Shown piece by piece: positions 11,987 to 57,735 of a stretch of 64,000 nucleotides of DNA. Below the pieces are notes generated by a model. That model ran no database searches. It was not told the DNA's origin and saw nothing but the letters and a program-made list of their open reading frames with translations. The translations under genes and the position numbers were made by a program. Within the stretch, counting starts at the first letter, position 1, and every line of letters starts with the position of its first letter. Source of the stretch: Symbiodinium natans (Eukaryota > Sar > Dinophyceae > Suessiales > Symbiodiniaceae); contig CAJNDS010000091.1 of the NCBI GenBank assembly GCA_905221605.1, forward strand, positions 460,283 through 524,282, written 5' to 3'.

Positions 11987-12700
11987 CGGGCTTAGGGTGT
12001 ATGTGATAGTAAGGGTACCCTGGTTAAGTTTACCAGGTAATCTAAGACCAACAACAAGGACAAAGGGGTACCACCGGGCTACCAAGGCTCGTACATGTTC
12101 CAGAGTGAGCCCAGCACGGAAAAGGAGTACCGCGCATGTTTCCTGAGCTGTCGTAACCCTGCTCTCCAGTTCCTAACCACCAGAAGCCCCAAAAGACCAA
12201 ATTCAAACTACGAATGCGAGGCCTGCGGAGGTCTATATACCTACGTGCCAGCTGATCAGAGTGATCCTGTATGACTTGTCAGGTTATGGGCAGCACCTGC
12301 ACAAAGTCTGCAGGTTCTACAAGACAGTCAGTTCTTGTGATGTTCCCCCTTCTACAAACAGTCCTTCATCGGGATTCTCGTACCCCCTATTCGAATCCCT
12401 ATTAAGGACTATTAAATATAAAGGGCAACATCGGCTACGCGCTGCCAAAGTACATCGAAGATGCATGTGCATACTGAAGGCCCTAGGCAAAACCGTCACA
12501 GCAATTTTACACCAGGAGCTCTCGCACAGCTAAACCCCTAAACCACCACACCCTTAGACCCCTAGACCCCTAAACCCCTGAACCTCTAAACCTCTAAAGC
12601 CCGTAGACCCGTAGACCCCTAAACCCCGAAACCCCTGGACAACCCCCTAAACTCCTGAACCCCTAAACCCCTACGCCCGAAACCTTCTCTTATATGAGCC
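11987..12700. other. Intergenic or intronic DNA with degenerate heptamers
   Basis: Unique sequence to about 12335, an element-C copy at 12337-12433, then a degenerate C-rich heptamer stretch (12531-12685) with units such as CCCCTAGA and CCCCTAAA. No exon is supported here; the minus-strand BTB transcript would run into this stretch, so it may hold its 3' end or further introns. Confidence 0.4.
12337..12433. mobile_element. Element family C (GATGTTCCCCC ends), diverged copy
   Basis: Starts GATGTTCCCCCTTCTA and ends AAAGGGCAACATC, with the family interior TCCCTATTAAGGACTATTAA. The ends match those at 14038-14148 and 26398-26499 but the right end is degraded. Confidence 0.6.
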
Positions 12701-12708
12701 CCATAAAC

Positions 12709-12832
12709 TTCTCCAAGCATCCGGCCCACAGCCACCACCGTGTGGTTGTCGATGACAGGTTGCAGTTCGTCCTCCATGGCTGCTGCTTTCCGCTTGCCCC
12801 AGCCCCGCAGTAGGCCAAAGAGCTCTTCTTGC
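12709..12832 (-). CDS. BTB gene, candidate 3' exon (BACK-like helix)
   Basis: Open in one frame as QEELFGLLRGWGKRKAAAME followed by VIDNHTVVAVGRMLGE. The ELFGLLRGWGKRK stretch resembles a BACK-domain helix after BTB. Acceptor CTAAG|G at 12833 and donor GAA|GTTTATGG at 12708. High-coordinate side is a G17 run rather than an array. Confidence 0.55.
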
Positions 12833-15179
12833 CTTAGACTCGGGGGGGGGGGGGGGGGACGGGGAGGGAGGAAACCCTAAACCCTAAACCCCTTTCGACT
12901 TTAAGAAGGAGTCTAAGGCCTTAGCGAGTTCTGGAAGGTCCGAAGTTGAGCTCAATATCGGGGCTTTGTTTTCAAGGAGGTTTCCATATCGTTCTGGCCC
13001 ACAACCACTGCGGTCCTGTGAATGGGGAGGGTTGTATGACCCTAAGCTTCCTTAAGATTCCCTAGGTACCCCCCATGAAGCCCCCTCCCTTAAGAAACCT
13101 CTAGGTTTAGGTGTTCGGAGGGTTTAGGATTTGGGGTGTCCCAAAGCCTAGCCCCAAACCCTAAACCCTAAACCCTAAACCGTAATAACAAGCAGGACTC
13201 TCGGCCGAGATGCTCGATGCACAAGAAGGGCGAGCTCAGTACCTGAAGGGTTTAGGGTTTTAGGGTTTAGGGTTCAGGGTTCAGGGTTTAGCCCAAATCC
13301 CAGAGGTCGTGTCTAAACCTTCGTACCTAACTTCATGCACCCGAAACCCAAGCCCTGGAACCTAGCCAGCCAGGGAGGAGGCTGGTACACCCGTGTGACC
13401 CTAAACCCTAAACCCTAAACCCTAAACCCTAGACCCTAAACCCTAAACCCTAAACCTAAACCTAAACCCTAAACCCTAAACCCTAAACCCTAACCTCGAT
13501 TCAGAGCACCAAAAGCCCCAAGCCCCTTTTCGGCCTCGTCCAGGAGACGAGGGCTGATTTGGGGGCGTATGCGCAGGGCGTCCTCCACGGCTGTGGACTC
13601 TGAGTAGGGTTTAGGGTTTAGGGTTTAGTGTTTAGGGTTTAGGCTTTAGGGTTTAGGGGATTCCAAGTGCTTTAAAGAGGGTTTCAGACGTGCTTCAAAG
13701 GGTTAAAACAGGGCTTTAAAGGTTTTTGAGGGTCTTACGTTTAAGGGGTTTAAAGAGGGGTTAACAGTGCTTGAACGGGTTTTAAGAGGGCGTTAACGGG
13801 CTTTAAGGGGCTTTTTCCGGGCTTTTTAAAGGGGGTAGCAATCGCACTGTAGGTTGAAGCCCCCAAAAACCCAAAAAACCTTTCATGACCCTTCAGGGAC
13901 GTAGGGAAGCTTAGGGAGCCTTAGGGAGTATTAGGGACCTAGGGCTCCCCCAAAGGACACCACAAACGCTAAAACCCTTAAACTTGTCCGACCTCGCAGC
14001 GAAGAAGGATCCCAGAGCCCCCTAAATCCCTGAGCCTTGGGATGTTCCCCCTTGCACCAACAGTCCCAAAATTTAGACAGGGACTATAGTAAGGGGTACT
14101 AGAATCCCTATTAAGAACTGTTAGGTATAATTATGGGGGAACATCCCAACCCTGAGCCCCTGAAGAGCCCCGAAGCCTTGTCCTTGGGGGGGTGAAAGCA
14201 GAACGAAAGCACCCAGAAGCAAAAGACGCAGGCCCCCCAGCGCACCGCACTCAACCCTAAACCCCAAAACCTCCTAAACCCTAAACCCAAAACCCAAAAC
14301 CCAAAACCCCCTAACCCTAAACCCCAAACCCCAAACCCTAAACCCTAAACCCTAAACCCTAAACCCTAAACCCTAAGCCCTGGTCCTTGGGGTGAATCAG
14401 AATCTTCTCCAGCGCTTGCAGGCGCAAGTCGGCGTTCTGGCATCGGTCGGCCAGCTGAAGCAGCTCGAAGGCCGTCTCGGGCCTGTTTTTTTTTGTTCGT
14501 TTAAGTTAGGGTTTAGGGTTTAGGGTTTAGGGTTTAGGGTTTAGGGTTTAGGGTTTAGGGTTTAGGGTTTAGGGTTTAGGGTTTAGGGTTTAGGGTTTAG
14601 GGTTTAGGGTTTAGGGTTTAGCCCAAACCCTAGACCCTAAGCCCCTTTCTAGGGTTGGTGTTACAGGACCCCGTCGTGCAAGAGAAGGAGCAAACTTCTA
14701 GTGCCTCGAGACGTACTCAACTAGGATGCCCAGTGACCTAGGAATAAACAGGGTGCCGTGCCCTTTTTTGCTTATAAAGGGTTTGCAATGGAACCGAACC
14801 CCCCCCCCAAAAAAAAAAAAAAACAAAAAAACAGGGAATAAGGGTACTACTGGGCATCCTCGCCAAAGCCTTACAACCACAAAGCCCTAAAACTCAACCC
14901 AAAACTCAACAAACCTGAACAGCGCCAAAGTGCCCTGAACGCTGTAGCCCTAAAACTCCTAAATCCGACCTAGCCTACACCCTACACCCTACACCCTAAA
15001 CCCTAAAGGGTGGATCAACCGCAGATCGAGCCTGAGCTGCTTCTGCACAGCCTGCTTGCAGAGGGCCTGAAGCTTCTCCACCTGCACGGCAGTATCAGCT
15101 GGGGTCAGCCCCTGGGGAAAGGGGAGGAGGGTTTAGGTTTAGGGTTTAGGGTTTAGGGTTAGGGTTTAGGGTTTAGGGT

Positions 15180-15217
<38 letters not shown>

Positions 15218-18200
15218 AGGTTGAGGGTTGAGGGTTGAGGGTTTATAATTTAGGGTTTCGGGTTTAGGGTTTTGGGGTTCAGGGCGGGCAAGCTTGCAAG
15301 CAGGCGAGCCTGGTATTTGTCGGCCAGCATGCCCACCTCCGGCTTACTTGGAGGTTCATGGTGTACTTATAACTGTACTGATAACCATATTATAACTGTA
15401 CTTATAACTGTACTTATAACTGTACTTATAACCATATTAGGGCACTTAAGGGGCGTATAGGTGGGATATAAGTACAGTTATAATTGGTTTATAAATAAGA
15501 TGAACCTCCAGGTAAAGTAAATACCTATACAAATTAAGGGCCCATACTTCAGAACCCCTTAAAGGAGGTTAGGGACCATTTTAAGGGCCCATGAAACTAC
15601 CCTTGGAAAATACTTGCCAGTCAAGGGCTTATGAGGGTCTAGGGTTCAGGGTTTGGGGTTCAAGGTTGCGAGCTTGGGGGTATAGGGTTGTGGACTTAGG
15701 GGAAGGCCTTGTGGGACCTTAAACCCACAACCCCCCCCCCCCAAACCCTAGCCCGAACCTCAAACCCAAAGCCCTAAACCCTAAACAAAGCTGAATACAT
15801 TGCGCCCGTGGCGTTTGACTGTCCAACAAGCCCTCCAGGGGTCGTGCTTTATTAGCATTCTAATTACAATTGTGTCGTTTGTGGAATCGGCCCATTTCAG
15901 GGTTGAGGCTTTACGCTTTGGGATTTGAGGTCAAGGATGGAGGACGGTACCCCAACAAAAACATTCGACATACTGGGTGCCCGCCCTAAGGCGACACATC
16001 CCAAGTAGACGCCCCTGAATGCAAAAGGCAGCCCATGCATGCAACAGGCGACCCACGGAAAGCTAATCCCCAGGGAGACGCCCTTGCCAGGCTACTGTTG
16101 CAACATAGCAAAAAACAAGCAAAACGCACGCGAGACCTAGCGCAGAGTATCGATTCCACATAATGTCGGACGACGGAGATGCACCCTGAAACCCCAATGT
16201 GACGCCTTGCCAGACTCCATGTTGCGAGCACAAGCCAACGTTGCTGGATGCTCAGGGATGAAAGTGTCCATTCCCGACCAAACATTGCGACGCAAACGGT
16301 TTATGGGGTCCGGGCTTAAAGCTGTCGTGTGACACCCGCCAAAGTAGATCACAAATTGGAGAGCTGCCTTGTGACACCTACACGAGACCACAAAGGTAAC
16401 CTAGGTTAAGGAATGTACCAGAACAGAAAACTGCAGGGGGACGCCCTGGCGAGACGCCCACGTGTCGTAAAGATGACTGTGCTATAGCATGCTGCAGTGT
16501 GACGCCTCGCCTTTTGCTTGCGCGAGACGCCTTACATCAACCACCCTCTAGGATTCTCGCTACCTACTTCCGGTGTACTTCCTACAGATGGATCTTTAGT
16601 CTGCGGGCTTAGTTAAACTGTATAGAAACCACAGGGAATCACCCAAACACTCGCCAACCCGAAGCTCCCCAAACCTACCTACAGCAACCTTCATAATCTA
16701 AGGGAAACGTACTTCACTCTATGGACCATTTTTTCAGGGACCCTAAGCCCTAAACCCTAAACCCTAAACCCTAAACCCTAAATCCTAAACCCTAAACCCT
16801 AAACCCTAAACCCTAGCCCTAAACCCTAACCCCCATTGAGGCAGCCTCCACAGCCGTGGCAAGGCTCCCGCGCAGGATCCCGGAGTACAGGAAGCGTAGG
16901 AAAGCCTTCGGGTTTAGGGTTTAGGGTTTAGGGTTTAGGGGTTCGGGTTTAGGGTTTAGGGTTTAGGGTTTAGGGTTTAGGGTTTAGGGTTTAGGGAACC
17001 CTAAACCCGAACCCGAAACCCAAAAACCGGCCGGCCTGAAGCTTGAGAAGTCCCCCTCCACCCCCCTCCTCAGGCTCGGGTTTAGAGGGATTTGGACTTG
17101 TTGGGTTTTGGGGTTCGGGGTTAGGGTTTAGCATACAGTCATCTCTGCATCGGTAGAACTGTACAGTCCCTTTTCATGCCCGATGATAGTGCGGAGCCTT
17201 AGATAAATAGAAAAGGGCATCCAAACAGGCCTCATGATTGCGAGACTTGCCCATAAACGGGACTACATAGGAACCGCTTGACACCCAAATATCTTAAGAT
17301 TTAGGGGTTTAGGAGTTGTTAGGTTTAGGGTTTACGATTTAGGGTTTCGGGCTTAGGGGCAGAGGATTTGGGGTTTAGGGTTTAGGGTTTTACGCTAGAA
17401 CACTGAACACCTCCACATGAGGAGAGCTGCGACCACCCCCCACCCAAATCTTTCAGGGGGCTATTTTGTGGCGTCTGCGCCTCATACACCATAAGGGTTC
17501 CCTAAACCCTAAACCCTGAACCCAAAACCCTAAACTTTGAAGTTTAGGGGGGTTCCTGAAACCCTGAAATTGTTTAGGATCTAACGTCTAGTTTTTTTGG
17601 GGGGAGTGATGGTGAGGGGCCAGTGAGCCTCCACGGTGGTGGCGGAGAAGTCCTGACGAAGGCATTGGGGCCCTCTAAAAATCTCGGAAACTTCCCCCCC
17701 CCCCCCCCTCCCCCAAGTACGCCTAAGGGCCTAAGTGTATTCATTGCAAGGGGCAAGCTTGGGGGCTTTATAGAATTCAGGCCAGGGTTTACGGTTTAGG
17801 GTTTGGGTGTAGGGTTTAGGGTTTAGGGTTTAGGGTTGAGGGTTTAGGGTTTTGTGTTTGGGGCTGCGAGCTTTTGGTTTTTTTTTTGGTTGGGGGGAGG
17901 TTTTTGGCCAACTTTTAGTTCCCTAAACCCCAAGCCCTGAGCCCTGAGCCCTGAGCCCTGAGCCCTGAGCCCTGAGCCCTAATTAAGCCCTAAGCCCTAA
18001 ACCCTAAACTTCAAACCCTGAACCCTAAGCCCCAAGCCCTAAATCCTAAACCCTAAACCCCAGCCCTACACTCCTCGAACTTTTTTTATTGCCTGAGATC
18101 ATCAAGGTGGCCTCAGCCTAAGTTAGGGTTGAGGGTTCAGGGTTTAGGGTTTAAGGTTTGGGGTTTGGGGTTTAGGGTTTAAGGTTTGGGGTTTAGGGTT

Positions 18201-20898
18201 TGGGTTTTTTAGGTTCAGGGCTGAACTATGAGGGAGTCATAGGCATAAACTCGATGCTAAATCTGAGGGCTTGAGGGTTTAGGCGCTTTGAGAGGTTTAG
18301 GGGCAAGGTGCTGATTCGTGCTGAGCTCCCGGCTTTAGGTCAGGGGTTCAGGCTTCACATGGGGTACGTAAAGAAACCGCTCCAGGTCCGGCAGGTTTAA
18401 ACCCCGAACCCTAAACCCTCCAAGCCTAACCCCCTAAATCCTAAATTCCAAGCCAACCCCAAACTTCGTGCGGTTAAGAAGACCCTGTGTCCTAAGGTGA
18501 AAGCCTCTGTGATATAGGCCCATATGTCCGCCTTGACCCCTAGGGACCCCTACGGTGTATGGTCTACAAGAAGCCTCTGGCATAGGGGCCCCAGGGGGCA
18601 ATTAGAGTAAAATTGTCTGTAAGATTCTGCAAGGGAATACTACAACTAGCAACTGCAGCAACTACTCCGACCCCAACCCTAAACCCTAAACCCTAAACCC
18701 TAAACCCTAAACCCTAAACCCTAAACCCTAAACCCTAAACCCTAAACCCCGGCCATAAATAGGCTTGTGGCCGATGAATTGGGGGTACATCGGGTTTCGG
18801 GTGCTCTGAAGCCTTGCAGTTCAAATGGTGGCTCGAGTTCTTGGGTTGAGCATGTCAGGGTTAGATGCAAAAAACCCGCACCTGAAACCCTAAACCCTAA
18901 GCCCTAAACCCTAAGCCCTAAACCCTGAACCCTAAGCCCTAAGCCCTAAGCCCTTAGCCCTAAGCCCTAAACCCTAAACCCTAAACCCTTAACCCGCCAC
19001 CCCGAAGCACAAGCTCATTTCACGTCCTGAATGACGACCTCCGCGGCGGCTTTCTCCCTAAAGGCGGGTGAGTTGATCATGGTGTCAAGGACCTGCAGAA
19101 TAAGGGCTTTAGGGATAAGGGTTTAGGGTCTAGGGTTTTAGGGTTCAGGGTTTAGGATTTGGGGTTTCAGGGTTTGGAGTTCAGGGCTTAGGGGGGATAA
19201 GGATCCATCGAGAAGAGGGGGAGAGCGTGGATATCATGGCTACACGAAGTAGGGATTTGTGTACTAGTATCCCAGAGGCAACCAGAAAGGACACCAACAC
19301 GTACACTCGCCAATATTTAGAAAGAGCCATGTACACACGCACAACAAACAGATACATAGACCCTAAGCCTAGACCCTACACACTAAACCCCTTAACCCTA
19401 AACCCTAAACCTTTCTTGGGTTTGAGTTTGTGTTGGGGCTCAGGGCCTTAGGCTGGAAACCCTAACTAAGGGTTTAGGGTTTAGGGTTTAGGGTATAGGG
19501 GTTAACTCCTTAAAAAGCCAAGGGGCTTTTGACCACTGACTCAGCAAGATCGACCAGACCTGTCCATGGACCAGTTCTCCAACTTCTGGTTCCAAGTTGA
19601 GTTCACGGGTTCCCCTACTGAATCAATAGCCTGAATTCGGGAGGGAACCTAGAAAAGGGGGAGTAGGGGAACCCATGTCCTAAACCCTAAACCCTAAACC
19701 CTAAACCCTAAACCCTAAACCCTAAACCCTAAACCCTAAACCCTAAACCCTAAACAAACCCTAAACCCTAAACCCTAAACCCTGAACCCTAAACCCTAAA
19801 CCCTAAACCCTCTCATCCCAGGCCTTGAACTCGGTCCTGACGACCTCGGCATTCTCGTAGCTCAGCTTCCCCGCAGCGCGCTCTTCAACCACCACTGTGA
19901 AGTCGCCGCCCTTCTTGGAGTTTAGGGTTTAGGGTTTAGGGTTTAGGGTTTAGGGTTTAGGGTTTAGGGTTTAGGGTTTAGGGTTTAGGGTTTAGGGTTT
20001 AGGGTTTAGGGCAAGACCTTACACAAAGCAGCACTTCAAGCCGAAAGGCTGTAGTACTCTTGGGGTCTGAGGGCAGGTTTAGGGTTTAGGGTAAAGGGTT
20101 TAGGGGTTTAGGGTTTAGGGGTTTAGGGTTTAGGGTTTAGGGTTTAGGGTTTAAGGGTTTAGGGGTTTAGGGTTTAGGGTTTAGGTTTTAGGGACTCGAT
20201 GCTTCTACGGCGTACGGTTTTGTGTATTAGGTTCAGGGGTTTGATTAGGGTTTAGGCTGTGGGGGGGGGGGGGTTCCGGAGGCTAGGGACGCCTAATCCC
20301 ACCACTATATATATATATATATATCAACATAATATATGTTTGATACCATACAGCCCCTATAGACCCCAACAAACCTAGATCCTAAGAAGAACCCCTACAC
20401 CCTATACTAAAACGACTTGAACGCCCTTAAAACCCTTAAAACCCTAAACAACCCTAAGCCAAGCGTCCTGGCCAAAGCATCCACCCAGCACATCCGCTGC
20501 GAAGGCCTTGTCCGCCTCTTCCACGGCCACGGCCATGGCAACTTCAACCAGCTCAGTGTATTGGTGGGTTTAGGGTTTATGGTTTAGGGTTTAGGGCTTA
20601 GGGTTTGAGAGTTTAGTGGTTGAGGGTTTGTGGATTTAGGGTTTGAGAGTTTAGGGGTTGAGGGTTTGTGGGGGTTGTGGTTTTAGGGTTTGAGAGGTTA
20701 GGGTTGAGGGTTTGAGTGGTTTAGGGTTTGAGGAATGAGGGTTTGGAGGGTTCAGGAATGAGAGTGTAGGCTTCGGTTTGAGGGTTCAGGATTGGGGTTT
20801 AGGGTTGAGGGTTTAGTGCTGGGCTTCAGGCTTAGGGGTTCAGGGTCAAACACTCCAAGCGCTTGAACCTCAAGGCTGGGCTCCAAAGACGGGGGAGC
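12709..20898 (-). CDS. Multi-exon BTB/POZ-domain gene (exon chain)
   Basis: Ten minus-strand exons join with agreeing phases: 20898-20869, 20551-20453, 19913-19809, 19092-19024, 18111-18072, 17068-17028, 16905-16831, 15111-15020, 14482-14379, 13599-13495. All acceptors are AG; donors are GT, with GC at 14378. The product has BTB features: DFTVVVEERAAG (first strand), LDTMINSPAFRE, AFLRFLYSGIL (the hallmark BTB segment), QVEKLQALCKQ, then FELLQLADRCQNADL. BTB proteins usually serve as dimerising adaptors, often for Cullin-3 ligases; that role is inferred. Two further exons (13242-13181, 12832-12709) probably belong but their phase join is not settled. Sel1-type exons just upstream could be the same gene. 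Confidence 0.8.
13181..13242 (-). CDS. BTB gene, candidate exon
   Basis: Acceptor CCCTTCAG, donor CG|GTTTAGGG, so the donor lies in a heptamer. Two frames are open (VLSSPFLCIEHLGRESCLLL or TELALLVHRASRPRVLLV). The second agrees with the upstream phase, the first with the downstream exon; an unseen exon or another splice choice is needed. Confidence 0.45.
13406..13494. repeat. CCCTAAA array
   Basis: About 12 units, some shortened to CCTAAA, ending exactly at an exon donor (GTTAGGG on the minus strand). Confidence 0.85.
13495..13599 (-). CDS. BTB gene exon
   Basis: Encodes ESTAVEDALRIRPQISPRLL and GLGAFGALNR. Donor G|GTTAGGGTTTAGGG lies directly in a CCCTAAA array (plus strand); the high-coordinate side is a TTTAGGG array. 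Phase agrees with the GC-donor exon upstream. Confidence 0.7.
14038..14148. mobile_element. Element family C, intact copy
   Basis: 111 bp with terminal inverted repeats TGGGATGTTCCCCC / GGGGGAACATCCCA. The interior carries imperfect palindromes around TAAGGGGTACTAGAATCCC. No coding capacity, so a MITE-like element. Confidence 0.75.
14379..14482 (-). CDS. BTB gene exon (post-BTB helices)
   Basis: Encodes PETAFELLQLADRCQNADL then RLQALEKILIHPKDQ, the helical pattern that follows a BTB core. Acceptor AAAAACAG|G; donor is GC (CAGG|GCTTAGGG), again within a heptamer variant. Flanked by CCCTAAA and a 17-copy TTTAGGG array. Confidence 0.75.
14504..14622. repeat. TTTAGGG array, about 17 units
   Basis: Nearly perfect heptamers lying in the intron upstream (sense) of the exon ending at 14482. 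It runs tail-to-tail into CCCAAACCCTAGACCC at about 14622. Confidence 0.9.
14721..14862. mobile_element. Element family B (CTAGGATGCCCAGT ends)
   Basis: Ends CTAGGATGCCCAGT and TACTACTGGGCATCCT form inverted repeats. The interior GGTGCC...CCCTTTTTTGCTTATAAAGG is shared with 26275-26390 and 37067-37179. This copy has an inserted C11A15 homopolymer pair. Confidence 0.7.
15020..15111 (-). CDS. BTB gene exon
   Basis: Encodes GLTPADTAVQVEKLQALCKQ and AVQKQLRLDLR. Acceptor CCCTTTCCCCAG is a good pyrimidine tract; donor CG|GTTGATCC. Joins in phase 2 to PETAFELL of the next exon. Confidence 0.75.
15178..15240. repeat. GGGTTGA variant heptamer array
   Basis: Nine units of a variant heptamer, nearly uniform, sitting beside standard TTTAGGG units. 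A uniform variant implies local duplication rather than templated telomerase synthesis. Confidence 0.8.
15344..15514. mobile_element. Element family A (TACTTGGAGGTTCATGG ends)
   Basis: Starts TACTTGGAGGTTCATGG and ends GATGAACCTCCAGGTA; inverted ends with an interior of repeated ATAACTGTACTT units and a GGGCACTTAAGGGGC core. At least seven relatives lie in this window. Confidence 0.75.
15520..16730. other. Intron-like stretch with dispersed GACGCC motif
   Basis: No convincing exon. From about 15990 to 16540 a degenerate motif recurs (GAGACGCCCTTGCCAG, GTGACGCCTTGCCAG, GGACGCCCTGGCGAG, GTGACGCCTCGCC), spaced 60-130 bp, which looks like a decayed tandem or dispersed repeat. A short candidate exon near 15788-15840 is too weak to call. 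Confidence 0.4.
16738..16830. repeat. CCCTAAA array ending at an exon donor
   Basis: Around 12 heptamers; the last GTTAGGG (minus strand) provides the GT of the exon ending at 16831. Confidence 0.85.
16831..16905 (-). CDS. BTB gene exon (core FLRFLYSG)
   Basis: Exactly 25 codons, phase 0 at both ends: AFLRFLYSGILRGSLATAVE then AASMG. This is the diagnostic BTB stretch. Donor GGG|GTTAGGGC lies in a heptamer array, and the acceptor ...CCCTAAACCCGAAG lies in the opposite array. Confidence 0.8.
16906..17027 (-). other. Intron made of an inverted telomere-type repeat
   Basis: The 122 bp between two phase-matched exons read, in sense, GTTTTTGGGTTTCGGGTTC...GGGTTTAGGGTT then CCCTAAACCC... to CCGAAG. 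Almost no other sequence is present, so the intron can fold as one hairpin that brings donor and acceptor together. Confidence 0.7.
17028..17068 (-). CDS. BTB gene exon (glycine-rich loop)
   Basis: A 41-nt exon read in phase as RGGWRGTSQASGRP. The composition is loop-like, so recognition rests on splice phase (1 in, 0 out) and on its place between two confident exons. Confidence 0.55.
17932..17980. repeat. CCCTGAG variant heptamer array
   Basis: Six to seven uniform CCCTGAG units next to CCCTAAG and CCCTAAA units, another locally expanded variant. Confidence 0.75.
18072..18111 (-). CDS. BTB gene exon
   Basis: A 40-nt exon, ATLMISGNKKSSR. Acceptor GGCTGAG|G, donor GGA|GTGTAGGG. CCCTAAA array on the low side, TTAGGG on the high side. 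Supported by phase agreement with neighbours. Confidence 0.55.
18676..18747. repeat. CCCTAAA array
   Basis: Ten nearly perfect heptamers inside the intron between 18112 and 19023. Confidence 0.85.
19024..19092 (-). CDS. BTB gene exon
   Basis: Exactly 23 codons: VLDTMINSPAFREKAAAEVV then IQD. Acceptor CTTATTCTGCAG|G; donor GAC|GTGAAATG. LDTMINSPAFRE corresponds to the helix where other BTB proteins have a VLAARSPVF-like stretch. Confidence 0.75.
19678..19808. repeat. CCCTAAA array, about 18 units
   Basis: Near-perfect array with one short interruption (AACAAACCC), reaching exactly the donor of the 19809-19913 exon. Confidence 0.9.
19809..19913 (-). CDS. BTB gene exon (first BTB strand)
   Basis: Exactly 35 codons, phase 0-0, starting KGGDFTVVVEERAAGKLSYE and ending EFKAWDER. 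DFTVVVE fits the opening strand of a BTB domain. Donor AGG|GTTTAGGG is supplied by the array. Confidence 0.75.
19919..20010. repeat. TTTAGGG array, about 13 units
   Basis: Begins 6 bp from the acceptor of the exon ending at 19913. With the array at 19678-19808 it makes an inverted pair around the exon. Confidence 0.9.
20453..20551 (-). CDS. BTB gene exon
   Basis: Exactly 33 codons: LVEVAMAVAVEEADKAFAAD then VLGGCFGQDAWLR, mostly helical and alanine-rich. Acceptor ACACTGAG, donor AGG|GTTGTTTAGG. Confidence 0.7.
20869..20898 (-). CDS. BTB gene, 30-nt micro-exon
   Basis: Ten codons, APPSLEPSLE, acceptor GGGTCTAG|G and donor GAG|GTTCAAG, phase 0-0 and so compatible with the next exon. Short enough to be chance. 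Confidence 0.4.
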
Positions 20899-20926
20899 CT
20901 AGACCCGGACTCCGACCCAGTTTAGG

Positions 20927-21003
20927 TTTAGGGTTTAGGGTTTAGGGTTTAGGGTTTAGGGTTTAGGGTTTAGGGTTTAGGGTTTAGGGTTTAGGGTTTA
21001 GGG
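20927..21003. repeat. TTTAGGG array
   Basis: About 11 units upstream (sense) of the 20869-20898 micro-exon, followed by GGGTTTCGGGTTGTG variants. Confidence 0.85.
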
Positions 21004-21129
21004 TTGTGGGTTTCGGGTTGTGGGTTTCGGGTTTAGGGTGTCTCAGAGAGTGTCTCGAGTCCGTGAACCACCCCTAAACCCCGAGGCCGCAGAACGCGCC
21101 AGGGCGCTCAGCCCAGCAAGATGGGGGGG

Positions 21130-21660
21130 GCGCCAGGGCCCGTAGGGTGCGGCATGATCCAACTCTCTGCTACCACAGAAAATTCAGGCCTGTGGGTGTA
21201 CCTACCAGTACACCCAAGCCCCAAACCCCAAACCCTAAACCCTTGTTCCTAAACCCGTAACCCTGAACCCTGACTGTAAGGTTAGGTGCACAAACAACGG
21301 AACTACATGTGTTGTCCAAGGTCGGGCTTCAGGTGGTGCGGGAACCTTAGGGCGCTGCAAAAAAATATGAAATCTGTATGTATGTAAAAATATTTATAAA
21401 TCAATGAATAAATAGATACGAATAAAAGCATAATACATGCATAATATATTTCCAATATAGAAAAATTATATGTATGTGCATGAGGACTAGAAGGAGATAG
21501 TCTCAACCATCAGCCCGAAAGCCTGAACCCTAAACCGTAACAGCCTGGACCCCAAATTCACTCCCCCCCCCTCCCAACCTCTCCGGTCCAATCATGCAAG
21601 TAACCCTTCTAATTCTTCGGAAGAAAATGGTGTGCTTTGCATCGGCTGCTTTGTGTGTGC
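21130..21660. other. Intron or intergenic stretch with AT-rich island
   Basis: From 21357 to 21490 the sequence is strongly AT-rich, unlike its surroundings, with runs such as TATTTATAAATCAATGAATAA. No gene is visible. A possible short exon around 21070-21110 has no resolved phase. Confidence 0.45.
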
Positions 21661-21981
21661 GCTAGTCTTCAAAACCCTAAACCCTAAACCCTAAGCCCTA
21701 AGCCCTAAAGCCTAAACCCTAAAGCCTAAACCCTAAGCCCTAAACCCTAAACCCTAAACCCTAAGGCCTAAGCCCTAAGCCCTAGCCCTAAACCCTAAAC
21801 CCTAAACCCTGAACCCTAAACCCTAAACGTCTAAACCCTGCAAAGTCCCAAAACACCCTAAAAGCCCTCTAAAGCCTAGAACCCCCAGAAACCCCAACCT
21901 AAGCCCTAAACCCTAAACCCTAAACCCAAAACCCTAAACCCCAAACCCTAAACCCTAAACCCTAAATCCTAGACCCTAAAC
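21660..21981. repeat. CCCTAAA / CCCTAAG mixed array
   Basis: Two blocks of heptamers with many CCCTAAG and AAAGCCT variants, ending at an exon donor. Confidence 0.8.
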
Positions 21982-22045
21982 CCTGGCGGCCCAGTGGCCC
22001 ATCCTTGTCTCCCGACTCGGCAGCCTTGAGGAAGTACTGGGCCGC
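21982..22045 (-). CDS. Sel1 gene exon
   Basis: AAQYFLKAAESGDKDGPLGR, a Sel1 helix pair. Donor CAGG|GTTTAGGG in a heptamer, acceptor TTTCGGAG. Arrays in inverted orientation on both sides. Confidence 0.65.
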
Positions 22046-24980
22046 CTCCGAAACGGGCGTAGGGTTTAGGGCTTAGGGCTTAGGGTTTAGGGTTTACGGT
22101 TTAGGGTTTAGGGTTTGGGGTTTAGGGTTTGTGGGTTTGTGGGTTTGGGGTTTCTGGGTTTGGGGATTACACCCTCGGCTTGACCAGCGAGTCTCGGTGG
22201 TCTCAGTACAGGGCTGAGGGTTTGCAAGACCCAAGGGGAATAACAAAGGGTACCCCTTTTGGTTTTAAGGGAACCGAAACCCTAAAAACACAAAGGGCAT
22301 AAGGGCCTACTCTGGGTCCTAGTTTCATGAGTTCCAGGGCACCTCAGCGCAGCTTTCTGGGCGATGCAGTCACTCGGGGTGTAGGGTTTAGGGTTTAGGG
22401 TTCAGAGTTCCGTTCGGGAGCCTTCGTCTGTCGGAGGTGGCTTTTGGGGGTTTCAGGGCCTTGGAATTTAATCTTTTGGGTTTGTGGTTCGGAGTTTAGG
22501 GGCCCAGTGCATGGCCTTTGGCTTTGTGATTAGGCGTCTTCGGGGCCAGGGCTTTGGGGATGAAGATTGGGGCTCTGCACTGAGCCCCGAAACCCCAAAC
22601 CCCAACTCGTCGACCCTAAACCCATTCAAGGGACTCAAGTAAAAAACCTTATAAGGGAGCTTAGGGGATATGTAGGGACTATTGAGGTATAGGGGCTTGA
22701 TAAGGTGTGCATATATATATATATGTATATCATATGTATATATATATAGGGGTTAAATAATTAAATAGGGGAATCAATTTTAATCTAGGGGTCCCTCCTT
22801 ATACCCCTTCGGGGCTGTGGGGGGGGGGGGGGGGGGGGGGTTTACATAAGTTTCTAGGGTGCAAGGCGAACCCATCAACGGTGTTTCAAGTTCGCCTGGG
22901 CATTCTCCCTAAACCCTAAGCCCTAAACCCTAAATCGCAAATGGGGGTATCCCCCTAATACACTCCTCTGAATGCTCGGAGAGGGGCCCCCTCAATGCGG
23001 TGCTGCAATCAAGAACCTAAGCCTTATATACAACCCCAAGGGTCGAGGGCTGGTTTGGGCATCTACCCTTAAAGACCCCAAACACCTGAAGCCCGAGCTG
23101 CTGCACCCTAGATCCGGGCTGCAAAGGGCTGCCTACCAGCTGCTTTCGATCCCTGTAACATAATACACACGCCGAACAGATTCAAGCAGGGATTAAGGTT
23201 CAGGGCTTAGGATATAGAGGCCCGTACTTGGAGGTTCATGGTACTTATTCACCAGTTATAGCTGTGCTTATAACTGTACTTACAACCACATTAGGGCACT
23301 TAAGGGACTTTTAAGTGGGTACAAAGCACGATAATTTGTGCCATGAACCTCCAAGTGCAACTTCAAGAAGGCTTGGGACGCTGGCCTTCTCCGGGTCCGC
23401 CTGCACGACGTCACCTGGCGGTACAGTCTAGGGCCAACCTGCAGGAAAAATAGACCCCTAAACCTGAAACCTACACTTGAATCCTGAAACCCTAGAGTCT
23501 ATACCCTTGAGGAAGGGTAGTGTACCTCAAAGCTGGGCATTCTTCCTTGCTTTAAGGGTATATGGCAGATTCTTTTGATAGGGCTTGTGGCTTAGGGCTT
23601 AGGGCCTACCGCTTGAGCGTTTATGAAGCCTAGGCATGAAGGATACTAAACCCCAAACCCGGTTCATCAAGCGAGCCAGCAGCCGTCTAAACCCGCAGGT
23701 AGAAGACGCAACTGCTAAAGCCTACATAGACGAACGTTTAGACGGACCTTCCGGAAGCGGAAGGCGAAAGGTCGATATAGCCGTTCGGCACCGTAAGCCT
23801 TAACCCCGAAACTCCGAAACTCCGAAACCTTAAACCCTAAACCCAAAACCCTAAACCCAAAACCCAAAACCCAAAACCCAAAACCCTAAACCCTAAGCCC
23901 CAAACCCTAAACCCTAAACCCTAAACCCTAAACCCTAAACCGTTTACCCTAAACCCTAAACCCTAAACCCTACCCGAAACACGAGCATGGCATTTCGCAT
24001 CGGGGTTTGGGGTTCCTACAACAAAAGGCAGTCAGGGGCCGCATCCGCGAACTCTCAAGCCCTTGCGCCCCGCAGCCTTTCCCTTACAAGCTAGCCCAAG
24101 ACTGGTCTAGGGTTTAGGGTTTAGGGTTTAGGGTTTAGGGTTTAGGGTTTAGGGTTTAGGGTTTAGGGTTTAGGGTTTAGGGTTTAGGGTTTAGGGTTTA
24201 GGGCTATCCAAGTTTTGTGGGCAGGCCTTCTAGCAACATCTTTCCCAGGATGGTCATGGATTCCGCGTCGCCCCGCGAAGCCGCCTCGCGAGAAGGGCTG
24301 GAGACATGTAGAAGCCCCCAGAAAAAATGCCGTAGAGTTTCGGGTTTCGGGTTTCGGGTTTAGGGTGTGGTGCTTAGGGTGTAGGGCTTAGGGTCTCGAC
24401 GGCCTAAAGGACGCTGGGATTTGCAGAGCCTAAGGTGGTTTGGTGACTGAGGGGTAGGGGGCGGGGCGTGCAGGCTTGTGGGCTTTAGGATGTCTTTGGG
24501 CTTTAAGGCTTTCAGGTTTCAGGTTGAAAGGTTTAAAGGTGTAAAGGCTAAACTTGAGGTTTATATTTTATGTGTTCGAATGCAGGTGTTCAACGCAAGG
24601 CTCACGTGTGACAGTCTAGCTTTCGGCGCGGGCCAAAACCCTTAACTCTAAGGGCTTGATCCTGTGTATGTACGGTTTAGTAAATTTAGGGTTTAGAGTT
24701 TACAAGCCCTGAACCCTCAACCCTAAACCCTTAGGGCTTGGGAGCTTCGGGTTTTTTTAGGGCTTGGACGTTGGGGCTATCGGGTCTGTGGAGCCTCCTG
24801 CAAGATTTCCAGCTCCTCGGCCGTCAGCACTGGCCTCCCTGACAGGGTAAAGAAAACCCGAAACCCGAAACCCGAAACCCTAAACCCGAAACCCGAAACC
24901 CTAAACCCTAAACCCCAAACCCTAAACCAGAGGGGCTTCTTCGGTTCAGGGGTTCTACGGGTCTGGAGCTTCGGGTTGAG
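21982..24980 (-). CDS. Sel1-like repeat exon chain
   Basis: Minus-strand exons 24980-24928, 24838-24795, 24284-24227, 23414-23362, 23002-22964 and 22045-21982 join in consistent phases (1-1, 0-0, 1-1, 0-0, 0-0) with AG acceptors and GT or GC donors. The joined product reads LTAEELEILQ, then AASRGDAESMTILGKMLLEG, DVVQADPEKASVPSLLE, and AAQYFLKAAESGDKDG. That is the Sel1/TPR-like pattern A..GDA.SM..LG.ML..G.(V)..D..KA. Sel1 repeats form helical scaffolds for protein binding. It may be the 5' part of the BTB gene, but the 22.0 to 20.9 kb junction is unresolved. Confidence 0.68.
22227..22322. mobile_element. Element family B, ACCCAGAG-type subfamily
   Basis: Ends AGACCCAAGGGGAATAAC and GGGCCTACTCTGGGTCCTAG; interior GGTACCCCTTTTGGTTTTAAGGG is shared with 34611-34723. 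Confidence 0.6.
22820..22840. repeat. Poly(G) run
   Basis: About twenty consecutive G. Similar runs recur at 12842, 35563, 57838 and 61138; they are assembly-sensitive. Confidence 0.8.
22964..23002 (-). CDS. Sel1 gene, candidate small exon
   Basis: Thirteen codons, HRIEGAPLRAFRG, with a good acceptor (TTCTTGATTGCAG) and donor (GGA|GTGTATT), phase 0-0. Could be skipped, since neighbours also join in phase without it. Confidence 0.4.
23225..23356. mobile_element. Element family A, intact copy
   Basis: 132 bp from TACTTGGAGGTTCATGG to CCATGAACCTCCAAGTG. Interior CACTTAAGGGACTTTTAAGTG is palindromic. It sits at the 5' splice site of the 23362-23414 exon. Confidence 0.8.
23362..23414 (-). CDS. 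Sel1 gene exon
   Basis: GDVVQADPEKASVPSLLE, with its first glycine split across the junction. The donor GAA|GTTGCAC lies only a few bases from the inverted end of a family A element, so the element forms the start of the intron. Confidence 0.65.
23826..23972. repeat. CCCTAAA / CCCAAAA array
   Basis: About 20 heptamers, including a block of CCCAAAA variants. Confidence 0.85.
24110..24203. repeat. TTTAGGG array, about 13 units
   Basis: Near-perfect array on the low side of the 24227 exon. Confidence 0.9.
24227..24284 (-). CDS. Sel1 gene exon
   Basis: AASRGDAESMTILGKMLLE, 58 nt. Acceptor CTCGCGAG|G, GC donor GAAG|GCCTGCC. Here the low-coordinate side carries TTTAGGG, an exception to the usual orientation. 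Confidence 0.65.
24795..24838 (-). CDS. Sel1 gene exon
   Basis: GRPVLTAEELEILQE with acceptor TTTACCCTGTCAG. Orientation of the flanking heptamers is reversed relative to most exons (CCCGAAA units on the high side). Confidence 0.6.
24928..24980 (-). CDS. Sel1 gene, candidate upstream exon
   Basis: Read in the phase demanded by the next exon it gives STRSSRPVEPLNRRSPS, a basic linker. Donor TG|GTTTAGGG lies in an array; acceptor ATTCTGAG. Confidence 0.4.
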
Positions 24981-25059
24981 CTCAGAATAGAGGGCTTAGA
25001 ACGGCTTAGGGTTTAGGGTTTAGGGTTTAGGGTTTAGGGTTTAGGGCTCCGGGTTAAGG

Positions 25060-26150
25060 GTTTAGAGGTTTAGGGATTAGGGTTTAAGGACTGTTCAGGC
25101 TGTAGTTGCTGCGTCAGGGGCCTGACACTCGGTAGCTCTAGTACGCGATTCTACGGTCAAGTACAGCCGAAAAGGATCTGGAATGATGGGGGCCGTCTCG
25201 ATATAGGCCTCTTGTTAAGGTCATGTCCTCGTGGCTATGGAACTCCAACGGGTATATACCATGGCTGGCGTCACCCTGAGCCCTAAAATCCGAACTGCAA
25301 CCTCTAAACCCCAAGAACCTTAAACCCTGAAAACCCTAACAAGCCAAAAAAACCCTACAAACCCGAAACCCTAATTCAGCCCTGGACCCTACAGACCTAA
25401 AGCCCCTACAAACCCTGGGACCCTCGGTGCTTGACTTTTCTTCCTCTGCGCGTGTGAACGAGCTGTGCAAGTCCGAGCAGTGCTGCGTGCCGTTTAACAG
25501 GCGTTGAGACCCCCACCACCAAAGTCTCTCAGACTCCTTGTGTGATAGAGCTTGAAGTTTGGTTTTCGGGTTTGGGGGGTTAGGGTTTTAGGGTTTAGGG
25601 CCTTAGGGTTTAGGGTGATATGGTGTGAGGGTATTAGGGTTTAGGGTTGGGGCTTATCGTACTTCACCAATCACGAAGGAATGAAAAAGGTTGCACTTCA
25701 TTATTCCTACTACATAGGAACCCCAAAAGTTTGAACTTCGCTCCTGGGCAAAATAAGTTATGGGTTTTGGGTTTGGGATTTCAGGGCTTAGTGGTCAGGG
25801 TGGTTTAGCAGCCGACAGTACTACCATATGGTCAGTTCTCAAAACTATGGTTCCTTTTTGTGTTCCCTAGAGGGGCCGCCTTGTAATCAGGACCCCCCGA
25901 AAGCGACCATATTTTGGGGCAGTGACCATCTAAGCTTCATATTACATATTGCAAGCTAGTAGAAGTTCCAAAACTTAACCAAAACCAGAAGATGACGACA
26001 TGCATGCCTGGGCGAAGAGGGGGCCGTAGGAATACACAAGTGTTTGGGGTTTAGAGGGTTTAGGGGTTAGGGAAGGTTAGGGCTTATATAGGGTTTATGT
26101 GGTTTGAATAGGAATGGTAGGGTTTATCGGATTCATAGGGTTTAGGGTTT
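25060..26150. other. Mostly non-coding stretch
   Basis: Degenerate heptamers and unique sequence. A weak exon candidate lies at about 25440-25560 (minus), with no phase support. Nothing else seen. Confidence 0.35.
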
Positions 26151-26390: not shown

Positions 26391-26397
26391 TATGGGT

Positions 26398-43860: not shown

Positions 43861-43862
43861 GC

Positions 43863-43988
43863 CTTGGTCATCCCTATGTTGGCTAACGCTTCGCGCGCTC
43901 TCCGCTCCATCTCCTTCTCAAGTGCCGAGGCTGTTGGGGGTGTACGAGGTACCTTGGCCTCTAGTTGCACTTCTTCTTTGTTGAATGC
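43863..43988 (-). CDS. Candidate coiled-coil exon, largest of the set
   Basis: Exactly 42 codons, phase 0-0: AFNKEEVQLEAKVPRTPP, then SALEKEMERRAREALANIGM. Acceptor GGAAGTAG|G, GC donor AAG|GCAGGC. A stop lies just before the acceptor in this frame, which supports the boundary. Confidence 0.62.
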
Positions 43989-44059
43989 CTACTTCCATGG
44001 TCAAGGATATGCCAAGGAAACGGTGGCGCCAAAAATTATGGAAGGTTTAGGTAGGGTTT

Positions 44060-44580: not shown

Positions 44581-44594
44581 GAACACACCCTTAC

Positions 44595-44655
44595 AGCCAT
44601 TCTGCTAGGCTGCAGACAGCTATGAGCCGCAACAGGTAGGCCGCACGCAGCGGCA
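44595..44655 (-). CDS. Candidate hydrophobic exon
   Basis: LPLRAAYLLRLIAVCSLAEW in one frame, with strong donor GCT|GTAAGG at 44594. A second frame (FLAAACGLPVAAHSCLQPS) is also open. Confidence 0.5.
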
Positions 44656-44789
44656 AGAAAGGGTTCCGGGTTTGGGGCTGCTTGGACTTTAGGGGGTTTG
44701 GGGAATATCGGGTTTAGGTGCTTCAGGGTGTTGGGCATAAGAGCTCCGTAAGCCCTAAACCCTAAACCCTAAACCCTAAACCAAAAACC

Positions 44790-44878
44790 CATCATTCCAA
44801 CAAGCTCCACACGCATGTGGCGTGCAGTCTCCTCCTGCTTCTGCTGCCTTTGCTGCGCGCCCTTGGCAGCACCTGTTG
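44790..44878 (-). CDS. Candidate exon
   Basis: APTGAAKGAQQRQQKQEETA then RHMRVELVGM, glutamine/charged helix. CCCTAAA on the low side, TTTAGGG then GGGTTTG variants on the high side. Confidence 0.58.
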
Positions 44879-44896
44879 GGGCCGATGGGGTTTAGG

Positions 44897-44945
44897 GTTT
44901 AGGGTTTGGGGTTTGGGGTTTGGGGTTTGGGGTTTGGGGTTTCGG
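44897..44945. repeat. GGGTTTG variant array
   Basis: Six uniform GGGTTTG units following two TTTAGGG. Confidence 0.75.
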
Positions 44946-45000
44946 GTTTTTCTGATGCCGGCGGAGACCCTAAGAACCCTCGAAAACTAAACCCAAGTGT

Positions 45001-45105
45001 AATTAACCTAGGAATGAAACGGGTGCCCTTTTTGGTTTACAGGAGCTTAAAAGGAAACCTAAACCATAAACAACAAGGAACAGGGCCCTAGTTCGGGTCC
45101 TCGTG
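45001..45105. mobile_element. Element family B, ACCCAGAG-like, diverged
   Basis: AACCTAGGAATGAAACGGGTGCCC to GGGCCCTAGTTCGGGTCCT; interior CCCTTTTTGGTTTACAGG. Confidence 0.5.
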
Positions 45106-45661
45106 ACCCTGAACAATAAGCCCTGATACCGAAGAAAGGGAAATCAGGGCCTACTTTGGAGTTCAGGAGTGATCCAAACCATGCCTAAGACCTAAAGCCC
45201 TACAACCCAGAACTCCCTAAACCCTAAACCGTAAACCCTAAACCCTAAACACCCCTGGAGCCCCCGCAGCCCAACAAACGAGGACTTTCCTGGAACAGAA
45301 ACCCCTGACTGGGGCTGCCTGCTGGTTCTTACCACATGATCCCTTAGTATGGTCCCTTGCCTCCTCTACAGGGTTCTGACGTATGGGCCCTTGGGTTGTG
45401 CAGGGGATTTTTAAGGGCCTGTCCATACATGGTCCTAAACCCTAAACCCTAAACTCTAAACCCATGAACCTCCAAGTGACTACCAGAACTGACCAACCCT
45501 GAACTCTAGAAACCCGAACCCCCTACTTCCCGACTCAGAACCAGCAAGACAAGCACTGACCCCAACACTAAACCCTAAACGCTAAGCCCCATGCCCTAAA
45601 CCCTAGACCCTAAGCCCTAGACAATAACTCCTGAACCCTAACCCTAAGCCCTAGAAGCCAT

Positions 45662-45722
45662 CCCGGCCCAGCCTTTGCCGATAGCTCGGCCTTTGCCCAC
45701 TCTGCCTCACTAGTGCTGAGAA
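45662..45722 (-). CDS. Candidate exon
   Basis: SEAEWAKAELSAKAGPGWL on the minus strand, same charged/Trp style as other exons of this run. Confidence 0.5.
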
Positions 45723-56700: not shown

Positions 56701-57735
56701 GTGTCGAGTATGAGGGCCTTACAGTTGGTTGTAAACCTTATTGACTCATTTTTCTTGGGGGGAATTTGCTACCACTCCTTTAAACTACACGTGAACCTTC
56801 AACCCAAAAATTGTCACCCTCAACCTTCCCATTTCAGGAATTCTCCAAGCATCTCTTTGAGATCGCAGACGGCAGCAAACTTGATCAAACCTGCATCTGG
56901 ACAGTCAGGGCTTTCACAAAATAGATACACCCTAAACCTTCCTCAACCACAAACCCTAAACCCTAAACCCTAACCCCTAACAGAAAAAGTAAATTATGGC
57001 CTACATATTTATAGGACCGTCCTGGGAACAACGGGGGGGGGGTTGTTTCTGATCCCAAATTCTACTAATTGCTAGAGAATCTCCCGATAAATGGGAAAAA
57101 TCTTCCTCATACTTCAGGGAAATATGAAACATATACTAAATATACTTCCTTATAGTTAAGGGGAAATAGAGGGATTACTATTTTTCTTTTTTTTTTTTTT
57201 GGGGGGGGGGGGGGGTTGGGGGGGGTGCCGGGGTGGTTCTGAAGCAAATAGTAGTAGTTGCTACATCCTGATCCTCAACCCTCCAAGACCCCTGTGAGTC
57301 CTCTGCGCACCCTCTGCACCCTACAACCCCAACTCCCAAAGCTGCCACCCTGTGCACCCCGATGGAAGCCTGTGAACCACCTAAACCCTAAACCCTGAAC
57401 CCTGAATCCTAAACCCTGAACCCTGAATCCTGAAAATCCTAAGCCCGCAGCCCTCCGTACCATGGCAACTTAAGCCCTGCTTCTGAGCCCTGCTCTGAAC
57501 CCTGCTCTGAACCCTAAACCCTAAACCCCTAAATCCCAAACCCTAAACCCTTAAACCCAAAGAGCCCTAAGAATCCAAATGCCCCAAAAGAGTGACCCCG
57601 TGATAAACGTCGAGCCCGAATCCGCCCGGCCCTAAACCGCAAACCCTAAACCCTAACCCCTAGATCCGCCCGGCCCTCTTCCAAAAGCTGCTGCTCGTTC
57701 TCCGACCAGGCGTCGCTTGCCGAAGCCATGGCGTT
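53710..57735 (-). CDS. SANT/Myb-domain gene (exon chain)
   Basis: Minus-strand exons at about 57735-57664, 56366-56322, 56079-56015, 55387-55331, 55076-55041, 54800-54701 and 53770-53710. Joined they spell a SANT/Myb repeat like that of the DNAJC2/zuotin group: WSENEQQLLEEG, then YPSLEELQFNLKM, KWKAIAGHVGTRD, and PEAEVKACAVRFK. Tryptophans and the last helix are in place. The join FNLKM|KWKAIAG uses a GC donor (AT|GCGTCC) and AG acceptor. Downstream READWKP, GQACRERAVKEQQVGQPEEE and GSWWKGQWSDWRWKPG join in phase (2, 0). SANT domains bind histone tails or DNA. ATG at 57727-57729 may be the start (MASASDAW). Charged coiled-coil exons from 53.3 to about 42 kb may continue the gene. Confidence 0.65.
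54138..54268. mobile_element. Single inverted-repeat element
   Basis: Left TGGGTTTTCTGACTCCCCCC and right GGGGTAGTCGGGGAAACCCA are imperfect inverted repeats of about 30 bp around a C/G-rich core. Only one copy seen here. Confidence 0.45.
54701..54800 (-). CDS. SANT gene exon (acidic)
   Basis: GPALGQACRERAVKEQQVGQ then PEEEGEEGEATNW; 100 nt, phase 2 to 0; acceptor GGTTTCAG|G, donor TGG|GTTTTGG. Confidence 0.6.
55041..55076 (-). CDS. SANT gene exon
   Basis: RSPVREADWKP, 36 nt, phase 2-2, acceptor GGACTTTCAG, donor CA|GTTTAGGG in the array. Confidence 0.5.
55331..55387 (-). CDS. SANT gene exon (last SANT helix)
   Basis: PSGRKTPEAEVKACAVRFK on the minus strand. EVKACAVRFK fits the recognition helix end of SANT. 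Acceptor CAGCCGCCAG or an inner GCTGAG; GC donor AAG|GCTTCAG. Confidence 0.6.
56015..56079 (-). CDS. SANT gene exon
   Basis: KWKAIAGHVGTRDATSSQ, from acceptor GAAGCCAAG|G. The second SANT tryptophan is here. Donor either CAA|GCAAG or CCA|GTTAGGG. Inverted arrays on both sides. Confidence 0.62.
56103..56320. repeat. Longest TTTAGGG array, about 30 units
   Basis: Mostly perfect, with GCGGG interruptions near 56218 and GGGG variants at the end. Lies inside a SANT-gene intron. Confidence 0.92.
56322..56366 (-). CDS. SANT gene exon
   Basis: QYPSLEELQFNLKM. Acceptor TTTTTTCTTTGCTTTCTCTAG is the best pyrimidine tract in the window. GC donor AT|GCGTCC fits the next exon phase. Confidence 0.6.
56465..56553. 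repeat. CCCTAAA array
   Basis: About 13 units. With 56103-56320 it forms an inverted pair around the exon. Confidence 0.88.
56560..57275. other. Unique and element-D-like stretch
   Basis: Plus-strand open frame 56578-56973 shows no domain. From 57050 to 57270 there are element-D features: ATAGTAGTAGTTGCTACA end, T14G15 homopolymer pair, GGGATTACTATT. No exon supported. Confidence 0.4.
57622..57679. repeat. Heptamer insertion with 14-bp direct repeats
   Basis: ATCCGCCCGGCCCT occurs at 57620-57633 and 57664-57677, with about 30 bp of CCCTAAA-type units between. The right copy is the end of the SANT first exon, the left copy lies in the intron. Confidence 0.8.
57664..57735 (-). CDS. SANT gene first exon
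   Basis: MASASDAWSENEQQLLEEGR. First SANT helix with its tryptophan. Exact 3' limit uncertain because the donor region was duplicated by the heptamer insertion. Confidence 0.62.

Follow-up and report, generated by a model that had tools for sequence, protein, structure and literature searches.

Telomere-type repeat arrays of opposite orientation at the two ends of Symbiodinium natans introns

Predicted exons and repeat arrays of the window

We analyzed a 64,000-nucleotide stretch of the Symbiodinium natans genome (positions 460,283-524,282 of contig CAJNDS010000091.1, within a 759-Mb, 2543-contig assembly), here called the window, in which predicted minus-strand exons lie between arrays of the telomere-type heptamer TTTAGGG, and we compared the orientation of these arrays with that found in introns of other genes. 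Arrays were scored as sense (S) when the transcript would read UUUAGGG and antisense (A) when it would read CCCUAAA; A>S or A..S denotes CCCUAAA upstream and UUUAGGG downstream of a segment, and S..A denotes the opposite order. The window contains 466 TTTAGGG and 550 CCCTAAA heptamers, almost all of them beyond 11.9 kb. These arrays are non-terminal, the window beginning 460 kb into a 1.1-Mb contig. The GC content falls from approximately 55-58% in positions 1-12000 to approximately 48-52% in positions 12001-64000, and the dense telomere-type arrays start past a candidate reverse-transcriptase element (Table 1).

When neighboring repeats were merged into arrays, 51 of the 64 CCCTAAA-gap-TTTAGGG gaps were exon sized (57-139 nt), compared to 20 of the 65 gaps in the opposite order. 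A preliminary description of this DNA had proposed that most exons are flanked on the plus strand by CCCTAAA on the left and TTTAGGG on the right, and had named 14 clear examples. Checked one by one, 13 of these had an antisense repeat upstream and a sense repeat downstream within 40 nt, and one (56322-56366) had the reversed order; the flanking pattern in the window is thus confirmed. The named segments start after AG in 13 of 14 cases and end before GT or GC in 13 of 14, the exception in splice motifs being 46597-46680, which is offset from the predicted exon 46591-46666. The proposed placement of the exons on the minus strand also held. An exon finder blind to the arrays, whose original training set included window segments hand-picked from between arrays, gave the minus strand of positions 12001-64000 a score of 126.3 bits with 22 exons and the plus strand a score of 27.6 bits with 11 exons, and after retraining mostly on loci other than the window the scores were 98.3 versus 32.7 bits. 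Exons 16831-16905, 15020-15111, 14379-14482, and 13495-13599 (C-terminal) were joined by hand in phase, the last two provided that 14379-14482 takes a GC donor. Their joint product had no Pfam match and gave weak matches to SPOP in PDB (E values of 0.09-0.55), and it appeared BTB-like by eye. Across twelve window introns, whose exons were partly picked from between arrays, the first array was S in 12 of 12 and the last was A in 12 of 12, and several donors sit at the first array unit.

Table 1. Predicted features of the window (array orientations under remarks are those of the transcript)
Feature	Positions	Strand	Remarks
Candidate reverse-transcriptase element	106-11986	-	Open reading frames 11552-313; TTTAGGG arrays at both edges
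Predicted coding exon	13495-13599	-	BTB-like C-terminal region (by eye); CCCUAAA 5 nt upstream, UUUAGGG 1 nt downstream
Predicted coding exon	14379-14482	-	15.9 bits net; CCCUAAA upstream, UUUAGGG downstream
Intron, 537 nt	14483-15019	-	Array order S-S-A; ends pair in silico
TTTAGGG array, 15 exact units	14512-14616	+	CCCUAAA in transcript; 3' end of intron
Predicted coding exon	15020-15111	-	A upstream, S downstream
Predicted coding exon	16831-16905	-	Reads KAFLRFLYSG..., BTB-like by eye; no Pfam match
CCCTAAA array, 16 units	19685-19807	-	UUUAGGG in transcript; 5' end of next intron
Predicted coding exon	19809-19913	-	13.8 bits net; AGG preceding predicted donor is part of UUUAGGG array
TTTAGGG array, 13 units	19921-20011	+	CCCUAAA in transcript; upstream of exon 19809-19913
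Predicted coding exon, Sel1-like	21982-22045	-	E value of 0.042, below cut-off
Predicted coding exon	50335-50415	-	19.1 bits net; A upstream, S 5 nt downstream
TTTAGGG array, 25 exact units	56107-56317	+	Largest by exact units; adjoins example 56322-56366, hence reversed
Short single array	57630-57656	-	At putative exon end; 10-14 bp direct repeat on flanks, AGGGCCGGGCGGAT in transcript sense

Array polarity at intron ends in other genes

The repeat is abundant throughout the assembly, with 1,788,098 + 1,787,600 = 3,575,698 exact TTTAGGG dimers compared to 257 + 280 = 537 for a reversed control. The 21-mer of the dinoflagellate spliced leader occurred in 104 + 101 = 205 exact copies, versus 0 for its reversed control, which identifies the host as a dinoflagellate. 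In eight loci away from the window's neighborhood (L011-L018, of which L011 was chosen because arrays were listed there), exact heptamer rotations covered 13.6% of bases, compared to 21.9% in window positions 12001-64000, and dimer density was 70 per 10 kb versus 47 genome-wide. Judged from these densities, the repeat may make up about one tenth of the genome. TTTAGGG is reported for dinoflagellates (PMC11453091).

Introns were then placed without reference to the repeats. Loci were first sought with PF00118 and PF08083, but matches were scarce and the longer of them fell in genes with few introns; the dynein AAA_6 family of Pfam (PF12774) was therefore used and yielded 76 exon-like matches, from which we chose 13 loci with introns. 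With two intronless dyneins as the reference, spliced alignment placed 103 introns, the aligner permitting GT, GC, and GA donors only and penalizing GC and GA. The donors were GC in 50, GT in 37, and GA in 16, as fits a dinoflagellate nuclear genome. Arrays were present in 23 of the 103 introns, and 80 were array free. The preliminary description had suggested tabulating the heptamer strand at intron ends, and in these homology-placed introns the predicted polarity was recovered: the first array was S in 19 of 23 (p of 0.003) and the last was A in 16 of 23 (p of 0.09), counts that include single-array introns. Minority cases, with A at the donor or S at the acceptor, include position 222 in locus L026 and positions 193, 225, and 230 in locus L030. 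Within 100 nt of the first 32 homology matches, the repeat amounted to 57 sense versus 420 antisense upstream and 339 versus 93 downstream.

The polarity depended on distance from the splice sites. In the 5' halves of dynein introns, sense versus antisense bases numbered 271/72 at 0-50 nt, 537/101 at 50-100 nt, and 485/49 at 100-200 nt, and further in 229/193 at 200-400 nt and 275/265 at 400-900 nt. In the 3' halves, the corresponding values were 27/246 (0-50 nt), 73/359 (50-100 nt), 208/692 (100-200 nt), 74/537 (200-400 nt), and 53/188 (400-900 nt). In these introns the 5' bias thus stops near 200 nt and the 3' bias has no clear end. Around 131 exons predicted by the array-blind finder in 21 loci, on both strands and with the dyneins included, no 5' bias was left at 200-400 nt (1286 sense versus 1622 antisense), and the 3' bias at that distance was slight (1274 sense versus 1463 antisense).

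A similar result was obtained from the exons outward. In the window plus 12 loci, 29 of 72 array-blind exons were flanked at both ends by arrays no more than 250 nt away. Of these 29, 17 were A>S, compared to approximately 23% of random repeat-free 90-nt segments flanked on both sides (p of 5e-5); with the window excluded, 9 of 19 were A>S (p of 0.02). In the window and the 12 loci together, the ratio of A..S to S..A was 5.0 at a spacing of 70-100 nt, 3.5 at 110-140 nt, and 2.4 at 170-200 nt, then 1.1 at 250-280 nt and 1.0 at 350-380 nt, so the A..S excess was limited to exon-size spacing. Genome-wide, spacings of 70-100 nt comprised 46,443 A..S versus 26,016 S..A pairs; the A..S count at 170-200 nt, 396,692, is given no weight here. 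Arrays in the intron interior had no clear polarity, with S arrays 26 in first halves and 23 in second halves and A arrays 23 and 17 (permutation p of 0.13; 0.23 for arrays more than 200 nt from both ends; 0.34 for the window). The architecture had been described beforehand as genome-wide. That description stands insofar as the polarity recurs at many loci, including unrelated dynein genes elsewhere, and goes too far insofar as not every gene has it, since 8 of the 13 dynein loci carry no array or one only.

Array-free and array-rich genes are both present in the genome. In three loci (L031, L032, and L019), dynein and Prp8 genes have long intron-free frames, and dynein paralogues are intron packed. 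Positions 1-10000 of another locus (L014) hold near-identical tandem copies of a gene without telomere arrays, which looked nucleoside-hydrolase-like by eye, judging by a motif.

Proposed entry of arrays into existing introns and competing explanations

Array-bearing dynein introns were as conserved in position as array-free ones: a paralogue had an array-free intron at exactly the same position and in the same phase for 11 of the 23 introns with arrays and for 31 of the 80 without, compared to 0.089 by chance. The intron at position 134, for example, is 53 nt long in locus L035 and 1196 nt long in locus L027, and the median length is 540 nt for array-bearing introns versus 95.5 nt for array-free introns. 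A stub, usually of 5-60 nt, remains at each splice site with the array block between (medians of 35 nt from donor to first array and 57 nt from last array to acceptor), and among the 20 introns that hold at least two arrays the combined length of both stubs has a median of 83 nt, near the 95.5 nt of array-free introns. Shared positions and retained short native stubs together argue that the arrays entered old introns, and the arrays need not provide a splice site.

The preliminary description had likened the introns to introner elements with terminal inverted repeats. Introners are DNA elements that create introns. Inverted terminal arrays do occur in 13 of the 20 multi-array dynein introns, and 12 of the 23 array-bearing introns had no array-free counterpart at the exact position in the paralogues compared, yet the comparison was not supported. 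In addition to the shared positions, the outer array junctions fell in all seven registers (GGGTTTA and AGGGTTT being most frequent), and the spacers between sense and antisense arrays had no common body: 21 of 158 had any match among 566 segments, compared to 12/168, 20/113, and 24/127 for other segment types, and the matches were short and spread over all types. Array flanks contained no recurrent family, 57 and 60 of 649 arrays having a same-side match and the best of these mostly overlapping neighbors. Direct repeats flanked single arrays (see below), and target-site duplications around S..A pairs showed no excess, either for adjacent pairs (0 of 178, 0.2 expected) or for those farther apart (1 of 309, 0.85 expected). 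The variable registers, the missing shared body, and the lack of recurrent flanks argue against introners with terminal inverted repeats, which we regard as very unlikely here. Fixed terminal inverted repeats and target-site duplications around the element are, however, characters of some introner families only. A scan of viral contigs for the same architecture gave 0 matches. In a search for a paralogous copy of window positions 12000-22000 that could serve as an empty site, the matches listed were to interspersed repeats; array-free paralogous introns exist but looked too diverged for an empty-site comparison at the nucleotide level.

Anchored direct repeats with a score of at least 8 flanked 18 of 652 single arrays, compared to 2.9 after shuffling. 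Clean examples were found at L017:3766-3885 (13 bp), at L026:449-558 (17/19 bp, in dynein intron 208), and at window positions 57630-57656 (10-14 bp). Because these duplications lie at single arrays and not at pairs, the inserted unit is probably one array, and a staggered-cut process inserting single arrays is the best-supported route. At the left end of the window, a reverse transcriptase domain (RVT_1, E value of 2.4e-5) and an RNase H domain (E value of 0.0014), both below the Pfam cut-offs, were detected, with RNase H preceding the reverse transcriptase in the open reading frame. A direct repeat of 17 bp brackets the element, with copies at 106-122 and 11970-11986 (2 window matches versus 0.02 expected), and the element's terminus abuts TTTAGGG in 5 of 5 copies with a matching terminus (the window plus four further copies, one with a single unit). 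A reverse-transcriptase family with termini abutting such arrays is thus present in the genome, and it may either insert at these arrays or end in them as a tail of its own. TRAS and SART are non-long-terminal-repeat (non-LTR) retrotransposons that target telomere repeats; the window's element resembles them in abutting TTTAGGG, a likeness of context that does not assign its class.

The explanation that we favor, with moderate confidence and from sequence comparison, is that interstitial telomeric arrays invaded and lengthened existing introns and that splicing retained the orientation tolerated at each end. Arrays would arrive singly, with no preferred orientation, through staggered breaks or target-primed reverse transcription, and the candidate machinery, telomerase or a non-LTR-type enzyme acting on telomeric-repeat RNA, would leave duplications of 10-19 bp. 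Arrays in the wrong orientation close to a splice site would then be purged by selection. A UUUAGGG array offers an acceptor-like UUUAG/GG every 7 nt, which would do harm if it preceded the genuine 3' splice site, whereas CCCUAAA arrays lack both AG and GU. At donors, runs of G may aid the weak GC, GA, or GT donors, the less certain of the two rules; in array-free introns, GGG outnumbered CCC by 45 to 18 in the first 20 nt. Such a splicing filter fits the polarity best, which looks more like a limit on splicing tolerance than a new type of jumping intron.

Several results weigh against this explanation. The antisense excess before acceptors reaches 100-200 and 200-400 nt, beyond the zone between branch point and AG, so AG avoidance alone is insufficient. 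The 3' ends of array-free introns are not C rich (GGG/CCC of 24/24 in the last 20 nt and 34/17 in the last 40 nt), the last-array polarity is weak when taken alone, and in the dynein introns by themselves the interior arrays showed some polarity (permutation p of 0.028). The 12 array-blind exons that had an array on a single side did not obey the rule, comprising S upstream in 5, A upstream in 3, A downstream in 4, and S downstream in 0. Several of the 18 direct repeats are low complexity or telomere-like, and the 13 dynein loci were chosen by us from the 76 matches of one gene family.

A serious rival, which we consider possible but clearly less probable, holds that insertion itself made the polarity: telomerase would cap both 3' ends of an intronic double-strand break, and rejoining of the ends would leave flank-(TTTAGGG)n...(CCCTAAA)n-flank, with one-sided capping giving S-only or A-only introns and later events filling the middle. 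Two capped ends would produce precisely this orientation, the end combinations in the 20 multi-array dynein introns being SA in 13, SS in 3, AS in 1, and AA in 3. Together the two stubs are about as long as a native intron, which is what a single break point would leave, the junction register varies as expected of telomerase priming, near-direct head-to-head junctions occur (position 232 in locus L030 and window gaps of 0, 3, and 7 nt), and telomerase-linked insertion at breaks has been described in mammals (PMC7215372). However, the direct repeats flank single arrays and not S..A pairs, tail-to-tail junctions of 4 and 5 nt are also present, and the orientation of one end did not predict that of the other (Fisher p of 1.0, n of 20, hence low power), an independence that counts, within that power, against paired insertion and against a strict pairing requirement alike. 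The imbalance per intron reached +4 arrays, and a balanced prefix order was found in 8 of 15 introns, compared to 8.5 expected. Furthermore, if insertion were polarized in general, older islands would be expected in the A-X-S context, whereas the largest short interspersed family (43 members) lay in the S-Y-A context 14 times versus 7 in A-X-S. Insertion of nested pairs, tried as a Dyck-word model, was rejected for want of any excess in the same 15 introns.

About as probable as the capped-end rival, in our view, is that the repeat has become a dispersed and oriented part of introns. Arrays would have been inserted one unit at a time, each with a target-site duplication, perhaps by non-LTR-type machinery that copies telomeric-repeat RNA, and would have been kept as splicing signals, UUUAGGG at donors and CCCUAAA at acceptors. 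The pairing of complementary ends to loop out the intron, advanced in the preliminary description, would mean that UUUAGGG and CCCUAAA ends were kept because they help long introns splice. Such pairing is possible, and SA is the commonest arrangement; intron 14483-15019 folds in silico with its ends paired (z of -4.11, with 0 of 100 shuffles as good), although it was the one intron folded and any intron with both arrays would fold well by construction. As an account of the polarity, however, pairing is unlikely, since A..S would serve equally well and S..A nevertheless predominated 13 to 1, the same orientation was found at both ends in 6 of 20 introns, 7 of 20 were not S first and A last, and the ends did not covary within the low power noted above. 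Less probable still is expansion of the repeat from splice-motif seeds, G-rich donors and C-rich acceptors, in place of insertion. The GGG excess at the 5' ends of array-free introns agrees with it, but their 3' ends have no CCC excess, the arrays begin well inside the introns, and some arrays are bordered by direct duplications of unrelated sequence.

Relation to known systems and other repeats

Interstitial telomeric sequences (ITS) are already known as such. According to one account (PMC7215372), mammalian short ITS resemble the arrays described here in being short, internal, and also found in introns, and they were inserted during double-strand-break repair, with nucleotides in register at the break and some with a flanking duplication; telomerase or telomeric RNA has been proposed as their source. 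Unlike mammalian ITS, the arrays here run to millions of dimers within 759 Mb, and their polarity is tied to exon ends. Introners of Amoebophrya and other eukaryotes likewise have complementary intron ends, also in dinoflagellates (PMC7789003 and PMC9860276; Roy et al. 2023, as cited in PMC11453091), but they create introns and form families of similar copies, whereas here positions are shared and there are neither family bodies nor fixed ends. In Karenia, a study using fluorescence in situ hybridization identifies TTTAGGG as the telomere repeat and describes interstitial signals as rarely seen (PMC6395649), in contrast to its dispersal over many introns here. The repeat and intron text of two Symbiodiniaceae genome papers (PMC8045281 and PMC11114475), in the parts covered, makes no mention of telomeric arrays in introns, and our searches of open-licence literature yielded no description of introns filled by telomeric arrays or of a polarity at the ends.

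The genome offers a natural experiment on the effect of intronic telomeric repeats on splicing, which the ITS literature has described as interesting to test (PMC7215372). It also suggests how long introns could have arisen in dinoflagellates other than from introners, and it opens to testing the question of how weak GC and GA donors can coexist with many acceptor-like UUUAG repeats in the pre-mRNA of one organism. If the arrays disperse by retro-insertion of telomeric RNA, telomere biology would be linked to intron growth, and if they act as splicing signals, telomere sequence would be coupled to splicing on a genome scale.

Other repeats also lie within the window. An interspersed repeat of approximately 560 bp (15988-16546) sits inside an intron and has many genomic copies, with 74-88% identity among the matches listed. 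Short elements at 12343-12450, 14040-14150, and 15340-15510 have, by eye, the inverted ends GATGTTCCCCC...GGGGGAACATC and TTGGAGGTTCAT...ATGAACCTCCA and are possible miniature inverted-repeat transposable elements. Short repeats recur in other loci, with one cluster of 43 members.

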